A DNA stretch of 64,000 nucleotides from Blepharisma japonicum (lineage: Eukaryota > Ciliophora > Heterotrichea > Heterotrichida > Blepharismidae): positions 1-64,000 of the forward strand of contig CATKHK010000004.1 in the NCBI GenBank assembly GCA_949751835.1, read 5' to 3'. The translations under genes and the position numbers were made by a program. This document shows, one piece after another, positions 1-8,117 of this stretch (the stretch's first letter is position 1; each line of letters opens with the position of its first letter). Under the pieces are notes generated by a model. That model saw nothing but the letters and a program-made list of their open reading frames with translations, was not told the origin of the DNA and made no database searches.

Positions 1-11
1 ACACCCTAACA
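1..11. repeat. Telomeric repeat at chromosome left end
   Basis: The first 11 bases are ACA followed by one full CCCTAACA unit, that is about 1.4 copies of the C-rich telomere repeat known from Blepharisma and Stentor. The C-rich strand reads 5' to 3' into the chromosome, as expected at a left end. Unique AT-rich sequence follows from about position 12. Confidence 0.8.
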
Positions 12-494
12 CAGATCTTTTTTTATATATTAAATATATATTACTTTCTGCAATCCTAGATATATTTTTTTTGAGTTTTTAATATTTTAAGCTCTAAGCA
101 AATAAAGATAATCGTTTGGATATTGTTGACTCATCACTAAATCAATCCAATACAAGATGCGCATAAGCTTAATAGCAAACTGTCTAGTAAATCTACCATA
201 GCCAGTTAAATTTGTCTCTTCCTAGCCTTAAGTTCTTCGCATTGAGCTAATACAAATGGATTTCAGCGAATTTGCATAGGAAAATGGGAGCAATTTGATT
301 TTAAAGATTATTTACTTGGAGTCTGTCAGTTAACGAAGTCTATTCATTTGAAATGTACAAGAAAAGACTTTTCCCATGTAGTGATAAAATAAATTCAATT
401 AAATGATTTTTTTTATGTATATTCAAAGATTGCTTAGACTTGATTATAAAACTGGAATATTTGGAAAAATCAATAATAGGATAAAAGCTGAAAT
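12..494. other. Subtelomeric spacer with a decayed coding-like stretch
   Basis: AT-rich subtelomeric sequence. A stretch at 258-389 is open in the same frame as the gene starting at 495, and has a coding-like composition, but it ends at TAA 390-392 and several more stops follow before 495. It may be the decayed upstream part of the pentapeptide/WD40 gene, because relatives of that gene usually carry a long N-terminal region, often an ATPase, before the repeats. This is inference. Nothing else is seen here. Confidence 0.4.
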
Positions 495-1159
495 ATGGAA
501 GAAAGGGAGATAAATTCTAAGAGTTACAATCAGAAATTTTCTGCAATTAAGAAATTTCGAGATTGTCGTAAATTGATTCTTACAAAGAAGCATATACATT
601 TAATTATATCAAGGAAATTTATAGCAAATTTGTCTACCTGCAAAGATCTTAACTCTATAAAAGAAAGCTGTATCAACAAAATCGACTTCAAAGCTTTCCC
701 ATGACTTAGCAGAGGAATTAAAGATTCTCTAACAGAGAACTTGAAAGAAATGCTTTATAGCGTTATTTTATTATCAAGAATTACAGATTCAGTTAATCTA
801 GCAGCAAGTAACGCAATCATGCTTCTAAATAAAGCAGGATTTTTATTCATAAATAAAGACTTGAGCAAGCTAAATATTCCTAATGCTGACTTATCTTATG
901 GAATGTTTATTAATACAAATTTTGAGTCTAGTAATCTTTCTGGGGTGAATTTTTGCAATGCCCAAATATATGACTCAAACTTCAAAAACAGCAATATGAC
1001 TAACCTAAAGTTTGGAGGAAAAGTTCTAATGTCAAATTTTAGCATAAATGTTGAGACTTTCAGCTTTTCTCCTTGTGGAAAATTTCTAGCAGTAGCTGAT
1101 GGTAAAGCAATTTATCTCTATAATTCAAAAACATACCAGAAAATTATCCAGCTAATTGA

Positions 1160-2375
1160 GAGAGAATTATTGATTCCTTATTGCCCATGCATGCCCTAAC
1201 TAATACCTTCCTTTTCTTGTTTCTAAAATAATTGTCATGCTTGCTGTTTTCTGGCTTCTCCTAACTTCTCCACCAAAGATTTTAATTCACCTTTGAGATA
1301 AACAAAGTTGTAAGTATTTTCTTGGGTTCTTCCTCTTCTTCATATTCTTTGACGAATGGGTTCTTAGACTCAATTTCCTTTTGATGCATGCCCTTGAGAG
1401 CTCTATATTTTCCCCATTTGCCTCTATTTTATCTAGGAAAGGATTGTGGTATTTATCTTCATGATGACTGTTCTTTTCAAATATTTTACTTTCTTTCTCA
1501 ATTTCTATGTTCAAAATAGGACTGAGATTTCTATTTTTGCCTGATTTAATATAAATTTTTGTGATCCTGGATATTCGGAGTGTTTAATTTATTTCTTTCT
1601 GGCTTTTTTGAAATTTTTATTTGTTTCTTTCATTCTGTTAATTCCACCCTATCGTATCCGCCTGATAAGCACCCGATTTCTTGAATTTGGAACATTGTAT
1701 TATTCTTGCGTGGCACTCATTGATTTATTTCCTATAATTAAAACATCTAATAACTCAAGTACATCTCCTAAGCCTTTAAATTCTATATAAAAATTTGTAC
1801 TTTGATTCAGGTATAAAGTTTAAATATGCCTTCTCCCCTCATGAGAAATTGTATCCTCTGTGCAGACTTCTCTAAATTTACACTTTAGTTTTAAGACTTC
1901 GATTGCTTCTTCGATAGCAATATCAGAAGGTACCATCAAGCTAATTCAATACCTTTTATAATTAATCTCTCCTCCAGGCAGAAAAGGTCCAACTGGTACA
2001 GTAATCTTTTTCCTTTGAATTTCATCGAAAACAAATTGATCCCTAAAACTTATGGTAAACTGCTTCTTCAAGGAAAACTAAACAGCATCTCCTGAAGGTA
2101 GTCTATGGGATCTTAACACTCACCCTAGTCAGAATTTATTATTTATACCCACGCAGAATGCTAAGCAGAGGTCTTTTTTCTTCTTTTGGTCTGATCCTTT
2201 AAGAAACTTCGAGAAGTGGGTTTTCACAGAAAATTGCAAGAACCCCAGAACTATTGAAAAATAAATTTCGGAATATTTCTTTAACTTTTTCTTCATCTAC
2301 TCCATCAAGAGCAGGAACCGAAGGGAAAGTCAGCTGCTTCATTTCTTCCATCTTTAAAAAAGTACATCTAATTGA
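1160..2375. mobile_element. 1216-bp insertion flanked by CTAATTGA direct repeats (IES-like or transposon-like)
   Basis: The segment interrupts the WD40 gene and is flanked by 8-bp direct repeats CTAATTGA at 1152-1159 and 2368-2375, each containing a TA dinucleotide. Its length (1216, one more than a multiple of three) is what is needed to restore the host frame. Almost all of the segment is filled by a decayed minus-strand gene that starts 17 bp inside the right edge. No terminal inverted repeats were seen by eye. It could be a retained internal eliminated sequence with TA boundaries, or an old transposon insertion with an 8-bp target duplication. The direct repeats and frame are seen; the mechanism is inferred. 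Confidence 0.65.
1203..2351 (-). pseudogene. Decayed unknown gene on the minus strand inside the insertion
   Basis: Reading from ATG 2351, about 50 codons are open (start MEEMKQLTFPSVPALDG) up to TAA. A +1 shift near there opens a further frame (KFLKGSDQKKKKDLCLAF) that continues, past a TAG, through FSLKKQFTISFRDQF and PVGPFLPGGEINYKRYW to TAA 1820-1822. The same frame then continues through EFKGLGDVLELLD and stops twice more. A further minus-strand open stretch with coding-like composition covers about 1203-1560 (ends TAG). Codon use and TGA-as-Trp match coding DNA, but at least one frameshift and four stops are present, so this is a pseudogene. I do not recognise the family; a retroelement ORF1 or transposon accessory protein is possible but unsupported. 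Confidence 0.55.
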
Positions 2376-3993
2376 AGATTTTCATATAAGATCATTATTA
2401 TTTTCTGATAATGGAAATTATTTATTGTCTAGAAATAGTGAAATGAAAGCGATTTTATGGGATACATCATCAAAACTTCAAATTGCTGAATTTATAAATC
2501 GAATTAGCACTTTTAGTTTTTCACCTTGCAATAATTTTTTATGTTTTGCTTTTCTTGATGTATCTAGTCGGAAAATACAGATTTATGACATAAAAAAGAG
2601 AGAAATAGTAAATGAAATAAGTGATTTTCATTTTGGAATAAATTTAGTATTTTTTTCCTATTCAGGAAAAAATCTAGTAATTTTAAGCTGAGATAAATCA
2701 CTTAGCGTTTTAAATTTATCTACAAAAAAAATACTAAACCAAATAGCTTGCCAACATAAAAATCCAGTAGTGATATCTTGCAATCGAAAATATATCGCTT
2801 TTCATTTTAGCAATAATAAATTATTTATTTATAGCACTGATAAACTAGAGATATCGATATCTTTTACAACAAATCACTATCAGTTTGATCTTTTGGCATT
2901 TTCTCCTAACGGAAAATATATAGCCCTATCGTTGCAAAAAAAAGCAATTGAAGTTTATGACTTGGAATTAAAAGAAAAAATATATAAAGTTTTTTGCAAT
3001 AAAAGCTCTATTTTTAAATCCCTTATTTTTCATCCACATGGAAATCAATTAGTTTCTATGACCTCTGATAGAATTTTGCGATCTTGAAAAATTCCATCAG
3101 ATATTGAAATGAGTAAGAAATGAATGATAAGAAAGGGAATGACAATGGCTTCATTTTCTTATGATTACCAATATTTTGCTGTTGCTGACGAAGAGGGATG
3201 AATTTTTATATTTTTAACAGAAAACAAAAAGTTATATAAGGAGTTTCAGGCTCATAATACAGAAATTTTATGCATTTCATGATCAAAGGAAGTTTTGGCT
3301 TCTTCCAGTAGAGATCTTATAATTAAAATTTGAGACATTTGCAATGGTATTACTTTAAAAACTATCCTTACTAATTCGCTGTCTTATTGAATTGAGTTTT
3401 CTCCTAACGGTAAAAAGATCCTTTCTTGTGAATTCCCAAATTTAATAAATATATGGGATATTGATAATGATCAGATACCTATAGCTTGAAGTCATCATTT
3501 AAAAAAAGTCTCCATGTCCCATTGATCTCGCTGCGGTAATTTTCTTATTACTAGCAGTTCTGATAAAACAATTAGCATCTTAAAATTCAGTAGCCTTGAA
3601 ATATTAAGTGAGCTGACTGAGCATAGCCACGAAGTTGATTCAATCAATTTATCAATATGTGGAAAACTTTTAGTTTCTTGTGATCTGAATAAAAATGTCA
3701 AGATTTGATATTTAGGAGATTTTAATCACAATTATCAGGAAATTAAAGTTATAAAAGAATTTAATGTAGGAAACTTGATTAGCTCAATTGTTTGGACACC
3801 TGATGGAAAAAATCTAATTTTTGGTGATGGAGAAGGAAGAATACTAAAATGAAATTTTTTCGCTGAAAAGCCAGATCAATACTTAGTTTCTCATAAGGGA
3901 CTTGTTACTTCTCTTGACTGTTCAAACAATGGGCAACTTATAATTTCCTCTAGCAAAGACAGGACAGTTAAGATATGAAAATTTGATAGATAA

Positions 3994-6521: not shown

Positions 6522-8117
6522 ATGAATAATCAATATAGTATCCAGCTTCAAAAATATGAATTTGGTCGAGCTTTATTTGATGCTTTAGATAGAAATGATC
6601 CCGAACTACTTAAACTAATTTTGGATCAATATCGTAATATTCCCACAAATTCGACAGTAGCAGAAATCAATGGCTTAACTCCATTACATATTGCCGCTTT
6701 AAAAGGAAACTTAGAATGCTGTGAAACTTTGCTTGATTATGGTACTAATATAGACATAAATGCTAGAGATGATCATGAAAGAACTCCTTTGCATATTGCC
6801 TGCCTTTATTCTCATTTATCCATTGCCCAACTTTTATCCCGCTCTGGCGCCTTATTGAATGTTTCTGATATCTATGGGAACACTCCGCTTCACTATGTAA
6901 TTTTAAGAGGTAACACAGAATTTATCAATTGAATATTTCGTAAAAATCCCAAGACGGAAGTTAAAAATAAAGAAGGAAAAATCCCAACAGAAATGAGCCA
7001 AAAAAAGAATGTAAAATTGTTGGTTTTTAAGCTAATGAGACCTTCACTTGGCTCTGACAATTTTATAGAAAGCCGAAACTCACTAAAAAATATTGAATTA
7101 ATTTCAGCCATACCCAAGCAGCCATCATGCGATTTAGATGAAGTACCAGAATTAATTTTTGACTCAAAATTATCACCATCAGATTTTTTAGTTCTAGAGC
7201 AACTTGGTAAGGGAAGTTTTGGAGAGGTATTTTTGGTCCAAATGAAAAACTCTTATAGATTTTATGCAATGAAAGTTCTTAAAAAGCAGAAAGTTATCAC
7301 TCAAAACTTGATCAGATATGTGATGACAGAAAGAAACGTTCTCACTTACATAAAACACCCTTTTATAGTAGGATTAAATTATGCTTTCCAAACTGCAAGC
7401 AAATTATTTCTGGTGCTTGACTATTGCCCTGGTGGAGACTTAGGACGTCTCCTTAATAAAGAAAAAGTGTTTAGTGAAGAAAGAGCAAAAATTTACGTTT
7501 GCGAGATTTTAACTGCAATAGAAGAGTTGCATAAGAGAAACATCATTTTTAGAGATTTGAAGCCAGAAAATGTTGTTTTAGATGAAGATGGCCATGCTTT
7601 ACTAACTGATTTTGGGCTTTCGAAGGAAGGGATTCAAAGCTCCCAAGCTGCTAATTCTTTTTGTGGCTCAATTGCATATCTCGCCCCAGAAATCTTGAGA
7701 CAAAAAGGTCATGGAAAAGCAGTTGATTGGTATTTATTAGGAGTTTTATTATATGAAATGCTTATAGGCGTTCCGCCTTATTTTTCTAGCAATAAAAAAC
7801 AATTGTTATCTAATATTCAAAAAGCTCCATTAATAGTTCCTTCGCATTTAAATCACGCAACCAAAGATTTATTAATTGGCTTACTTCAAAAAAATTACGA
7901 GAAAAGATTGGGATTTATTGGTGATGCTGAAGAAGTAAAGAGTCATGAATATTTTAATGGGGTTGATTGGGATATGGTCATGAAAAAAAATTTAAGGCCA
8001 CCAAAATCTGTTATGAAGAATGATATTACTAATGGAGTTAATATTGATTTTGAAGAAGAAATTGAAACTAATGAAAATGATAACCATTTGCAAGGATGGT
8101 CTTTTGTACATGATTAG
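6522..8117 (+). CDS. Ankyrin-repeat AGC-family serine/threonine kinase
   Basis: 531 aa, ATG to TAG, one in-frame TGA (Trp, 6930-6932). Residues about 45-150 hold ankyrin repeats (NGLTPLHIAALKGNLECCETLL; ERTPLHIACLYSHLSIAQLL; YGNTPLHYVILRGN). The kinase domain starts near residue 225, with glycine loop GKGSFGEV (229-236), catalytic Lys in AMKVLKK, catalytic FRDLKPEN (Asp345) and DFG at 363-365. The activation segment is SFCGSIAYLAPEIL, where most AGC kinases have SFCGTPEYLAPE, so the usual Thr of the loop is Ser. RLG near the lobe end (EKRLGFIGDAEEVKSHEYF) and a terminal hydrophobic motif (LQGWSF) are AGC hallmarks. It should phosphorylate Ser/Thr on partners selected by the ankyrin domain. 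The ankyrin-AGC fusion is unusual outside protists; substrate unknown. Confidence 0.9.

Follow-up and report, generated by a model that had tools for sequence, protein, structure and literature searches.

Half-LINEs of the HAL1 type, known from mammals, are retrotransposon copies that bear ORF1 and have no ORF2. Within the ciliates, the closest described system is the macronucleus of Blepharisma stoltei, a genome of 41 Mb and 66% AT; according to the published text, introns in Blepharisma are mostly 15 and 16 bp long (PMC9942806). The B. stoltei macronucleus holds LINE sequences, which the published text describes as carrying endonuclease and reverse transcriptase (RT) domains, with many partial copies and some loci partly excised (PMC9942856). 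These LINEs are described there by RVT_1 and endonuclease domains, and the term 'ORF1' is absent from the main text (PMC9942856). The same source reports for the internal eliminated sequences (IESs) of Blepharisma a median length of 255 bp, a 90th percentile of 603 bp and a maximum of 7251 bp, states that direct repeats with a TA flank about three-quarters of them, and makes the case that selection favours transposons with target duplications that already suit the preference of the excisase (PMC9942856).

We analysed the first 64,000 nucleotides (hereafter the window) of a Blepharisma japonicum contig (CATKHK010000004.1), in which a pentapeptide/WD40 gene close to the contig start is interrupted by 1.2 kb of foreign sequence. 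The telomere unit, genetic code and composition of the window (34.3% GC) fit the description of B. stoltei as far as the published text gives it (PMC9942806). The segment is very probably a decayed copy of an ORF2-less non-LTR (LINE-type) retrotransposon, lying antisense in a member of the pentapeptide/WD40 family and bounded by an 8-bp duplication, CTAATTGA. Unlike the LINEs described from B. stoltei, it is an ORF1-only relic within a host coding frame and has a target duplication. It resembles the HAL1-type elements in bearing ORF1 without ORF2, but here there is no sign of an ORF1-only form multiplying, since the other copies are differently truncated. With Blepharisma IESs, the longer of which are described as mostly repeats, it shares a TA-containing direct repeat and a position inside a gene; in contrast, it is retained in the assembled sequence, is a candidate only, and is long against the reported median of 255 bp (PMC9942856). 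Moreover, IES repeats are reported to be most often TA, TAT/ATA or TATA, whereas the repeat here has 8 bp (PMC9942856). The insert is thus one more case of a published kind, LINEs in the Blepharisma macronucleus, and it is the intact host frame that sets its interest. Full-text literature searches did not return any title or opening of an abstract that deals with this insertion, and nothing joining non-LTR retrotransposon, ORF1, zinc knuckle and ciliate.

An insertion in a pentapeptide/WD40 gene

Joining the two flanks of the segment (Table 1) yields a single open frame of 760 codons, from the ATG at 495 to the stop ending at 3993, provided that TGA is read as Trp, as open coding frames in the window require. 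The unit whose removal restores this frame comprises one copy of CTAATTGA and the 1208 bp in between, 1216 bp in total. When the insert is left in, the 5' half reads 12 foreign residues and then meets TAA at 1197-1199. The host halves themselves contain no stop and no frameshift over 2280 nt, that is, over the whole 2.28-kb frame.

Table 1. Features of the interrupted gene and its insert; positions are those of the window.
Feature	Position	Strand	Remarks
Contig start with a single CCCTAACA telomere-type repeat	1..12	+	Repeat unit as in the published text of PMC9942806
Host gene, 5' part (pentapeptide repeats and first WD40 strands)	495..1159	+	Pfam PF00805, 2.9e-7
Left direct repeat CTAATTGA (probable target-site duplication)	1152..1159	+	
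Retrotransposon relic, antisense to host gene	1160..2367	-	1208 bp; 1216 bp including one repeat
3' terminal stretch common to C96	1160..1222	-	Ungapped 1178-1222, gapped extension to 1160
Lysine-rich open frame, 127 codons, past the zinc-knuckle position	1203..1583	-	Probable ORF1 C-terminus, from position and composition
LINE ORF1 relic	1663..2363	-	82% DNA identity to C172:32366-33103; start codon 2351-2349
Four bases from the 5' end of element homology to the right repeat	2364..2367	-	
Right direct repeat CTAATTGA	2368..2375	+	
Host gene, 3' part (WD40 repeats), including stop	2376..3993	+	Pfam WD40 PF00400, 1.7e-36

Paralogues in the same genome provide the strongest evidence for an insertion. 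Our own-genome searches used an assembly of 45.2 Mb in 224 contigs, in which the left and right flanks listed 20 and 7 non-self matches, respectively; three from each were taken for alignment (the non-self loci L044, L045, L046, L048, L049 and L050). All six of these paralogous pentapeptide/WD40 genes align uninterrupted across the junction with the joined frame, at 43-48% identity and with no stop in the aligned stretch. Sequence comparison therefore establishes that the segment is an insertion in a gene whose paralogues have no such interruption. At the junction (1147-1159 / 2376-2390), the joined frame lacks one residue relative to all six, a small and unexplained difference. Searches of the assembly with the left and right flanks found no insert-free second copy of the locus, the best other matches being 75% (left) and 72% (right) identical.

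The octamer CTAATTGA is not rare by itself, with 9 occurrences in the window against 6.2 expected, so its evidential value lies in its position: two points 1204 bp apart, with a few nucleotides of slack at each end, share an exact 8-bp direct repeat in 0.36% (0.0036) of random placements in the window. Target-site duplications are variable in length in LINEs, and here an exact 8-bp repeat is present at both ends of the insert; the pair is a probable target-site duplication. The preliminary description of this locus had proposed a 1216-bp insertion between direct repeats whose precise removal gives a 760-aa gene, and we recovered both repeat copies and the joined frame. It had also raised the possibility that homologues carry the insert as a normal part of the gene, which is the case in none of the six paralogues. 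The TA that it pointed out in the shared repeat is indeed there, but it carries little weight as a pointer to an IES, because TA is present in 45% of all the window's 8-mers.

Identity and ends of the insert

Searched against the genome at the DNA level, the insert retrieved four further copies or fragments, two on contig C172 (32366-33103, 82% identity; 7455-7829, 84%), one on C15 (3689-3892, 77%) and one on C96 (58062-58106, 87% over 45 bp). The first of these has a 204-codon open frame from its ATG, with which the insert has 60% identity at the protein level, and this open piece as a protein query finds 22 places in the genome with E<=1, a number that counts both itself and the insert. At four loci (C6, C120, C144 and C186) the homologous frame lies upstream of an APE-type endonuclease and/or an RT on the same strand: C144 and C186 have an RT (PF00078) downstream, C6 an Exo_endo_phos_2 match, and the frames that follow at C6 and C120 match endonuclease families (PF14529 or PF03372) above the Pfam curated cut-off. 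By eye, the frame is followed at all four loci by CxxCxxxGHxxxxH, which we take to be a zinc-knuckle-like motif and which is degenerate in the insert. Pfam gave no domain model for either the C172 open piece (best E 0.1) or the corresponding frame of C6, so the identification as ORF1 rests on linkage to endonuclease and RT. Since the homologues precede these domains, the insert is read as an antisense LINE ORF1 relic. One of the relatives is itself composite: at L006:7021-7829 on C172, a LINE C-terminal-like frame, in which a Cys/His motif is visible by eye, passes straight into a piece from the middle of ORF1, from which we conclude that C172 carries chimeric LINE pieces.

Approximately 500 bp of the insert are left past ORF1. 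No convincing similarity to ORF2 (endonuclease and RT) was found in the insert, and we therefore class it as a LINE-derived relic and not as a complete LINE. The part past ORF1 does give a weak two-piece tblastx match to the RT locus L012 (E 2e-5), a value reached by none of 60 shuffles, of which 7 reach 1e-3 and the best 3e-4. As a trace of ORF2 this match was rejected: it is Phe-rich and lies in antisense frames, and we take it as low complexity. The lysine-rich frame of 127 codons is probably the C-terminus of ORF1, as its position and composition suggest; it has no significant relative in the genome (best other E 0.33) and no Pfam match. The 440 bp from 1223 to 1662 gave no DNA match in the own-genome search and are thus assigned to the element by position and composition only.

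LINE copies usually lose their 5' end. In the insert the 5' end is retained, which, like the lack of ORF2 and of a tail, counts against a LINE copy. The homology to C172 and C15 has its last common base at 2363, 4 nt short of the right repeat. C172 (L002:1139-1497) and C15 (L004:1128-1497) also have 373 bp upstream of the element in common, at 87% identity, so they probably represent one duplicated insertion and are not independent witnesses of the 5' end. By eye this upstream stretch is TPR-like, and the two copies resemble a segmental duplication near contig ends. At the other end, the similarity to C96 stops, with gapped extension, at the base adjoining the left repeat. The terminal part scores 38.5, which none of 1000 letter shuffles reaches (maximum 29.5), and the support of C96 for the 3' terminus consists of one short gapped match. 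A genome search for further relatives of this stretch gave only C96 itself and the window, and no target duplication was seen by eye at the C96 element. Homology that ends at one repeat and 4 nt from the other is as expected of an element with a target-site duplication. No poly-A or simple-repeat tail was found on reading the minus strand at 1160-1180.

As far as sequence can tell, the identity of the insert as ORF1, the coincidence of its ends with the repeats and its decay, described below, are firm. The coding relic mentioned in the preliminary description can accordingly be named as the antisense remnant of a non-LTR retrotransposon ORF1, the further copies it had suggested looking for exist, and its transposon with an 8-bp target duplication becomes a non-LTR retrotransposon through the ORF1 homology and the ends at the repeats. 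A DNA transposon with an 8-bp duplication was considered and rejected: none of the 25 longest of 78 inverted-repeat pairs joins the ends of the insert, and the coding relic is a LINE ORF1.

Decay of the insert and integrity of the host frame

Compared with the open frame of C172, the insert contains 8 frameshifting indels over 612 nt, and 58 of the 573 sites compared are different. The differences are spread evenly over the codon positions (16/24/18), and in ungapped codons 15 are synonymous and 41 non-synonymous (15/56), as expected without selection. The indels are unlikely to stem from assembly error, since the flanks are free of them. In a three-copy comparison of 560 columns the insert alone differs at 54, C172a alone at 20 and the third copy alone at 24.

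We simulated neutral drift of the host frame in 2000 runs, taking the ratio of indels to substitutions from the insert itself. At 0.25% substitutions the frame was still open in a fraction of 0.36 of the runs, at 1% in 0.02 and at 2% in 0/2000. With half the indel rate these fractions were 0.09 at 1% and 0.009 at 2%, and when stops alone were counted they were 0.46 at 1% and 0.017 at 5%. A decayed insert within an intact host implies either a recent copy that was dead on arrival or a gene that was under selection while the relic decayed, and the simplest route to the latter in a ciliate would be macronuclear excision. On sequence grounds, developmental excision and the recent insertion of a dead copy would both be compatible with the contrast, which they explain equally well.

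Origin and fate of the insert

The course of events that we propose begins with a LINE copy without ORF2, which would have inserted antisense into a pentapeptide/WD40 family member close to the contig end, presumably by target-primed reverse transcription, and would thereby have duplicated 8 bp of its target, CTAATTGA. ORF2 would have been lost before insertion, through an internal deletion or because the template was already ORF2-less, and the copy may have decayed after insertion or arrived in a decayed state. The absence of both ORF2 and a tail might instead suggest filler captured during the repair of a staggered break, where fill-in of the cut could also produce the repeat. We consider such an origin improbable: both ends of the segment match ends of homology in other copies, as expected of element termini and not of random filler. 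That the segment is a spliced intron is hardly credible. Its precise removal does restore the frame, but none of the 9 possible cut registers within the repeat places GT at the left, and Blepharisma introns are reported to be predominantly 15 and 16 bp long (PMC9942806).

Another question regards what becomes of the retrotransposon relic in the macronucleus. There is close to an even chance that the gene was recently broken by an already decayed copy, which would be kept in every macronuclear copy of the locus, with halves too young to have decayed or, alternatively, both still used as two genes. The perfect repeat, the fully open host halves and the presence of ORF1 fragments of the family elsewhere in the genome all agree with a recent break. 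Against it, the proteins of a LINE normally work on the RNA that encodes them, so that a dead copy is a poor template, and in the assembly no donor was found that is closer than 77-84% identity among matches longer than 45 bp; the donor would need to be germline-limited or lost. Nested within the LINE explanation, and not an alternative to it, is a reading that we hold more tentatively, namely that the relic is also an IES, present in the germline and removed from most macronuclear copies by excision between the CTAATTGA repeats, which would leave the gene functional, the assembly having kept the unexcised form. The intact 760-codon frame next to 8 frameshifting indels in 612 nt of insert points this way, as does the simulated neutral frame at the insert's indel rate (open in 0.02 of runs at 1%, in none of 2000 at 2%), yet the simulation loses force when the indel rate is halved or stops alone are counted, some of the divergence falls on the C172 side, and the relic may already have been dead when it inserted. 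Likewise, the repeat contains TA, as do those of about three-quarters of Blepharisma IESs, and partial excision of LINE loci is on record in the published text (PMC9942856), but TA in an 8-mer is close to a coin toss in this window (45%), no empty-site copy was found in the assembly, and none of the 25 longest inverted-repeat pairs, out of 78, joins the ends. At about 1.2 kb the insert lies above the reported 90th percentile of IES lengths (603 bp) and well under the maximum of 7251 bp (PMC9942856). The full scenario, in which a LINE copy and not a cut-and-paste transposon turned into an IES, its TA-holding 8-bp duplication now serving as excision repeat and the host being selected while the relic decays, seems rather unlikely. 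Nonetheless, a retrotransposon in a coding frame whose empty site can be inferred from paralogues would offer a clean test of adoption by the excision machinery, and of whether any insertion with TA in its target duplication can become excised. If it is not excised, the locus is an ordinary broken gene.

Reverse transcriptase sequences at contig ends

With one RT match taken per contig (from 32), 21 of 29 contigs have theirs within 10 kb of a contig end, against 7.2 expected. Subtelomeric targeting of LINEs was considered and rejected, as none of the 19 fetched RT-bearing ends has a telomere repeat in its last 100 bases; assembly breaks at repeats are therefore the likelier cause of the clustering. 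Contig C69 (L025) starts with a telomere array approximately 1 kb from a LINE fragment. Finally, at L055 (C2:879500-881000) an ORF1-like stretch lies inside an open stretch of 408 codons that reaches the end of the retrieved piece, together with a sequence resembling, by eye, an ABC-transporter membrane domain, which might reflect a fusion or an insertion at the start of a gene.
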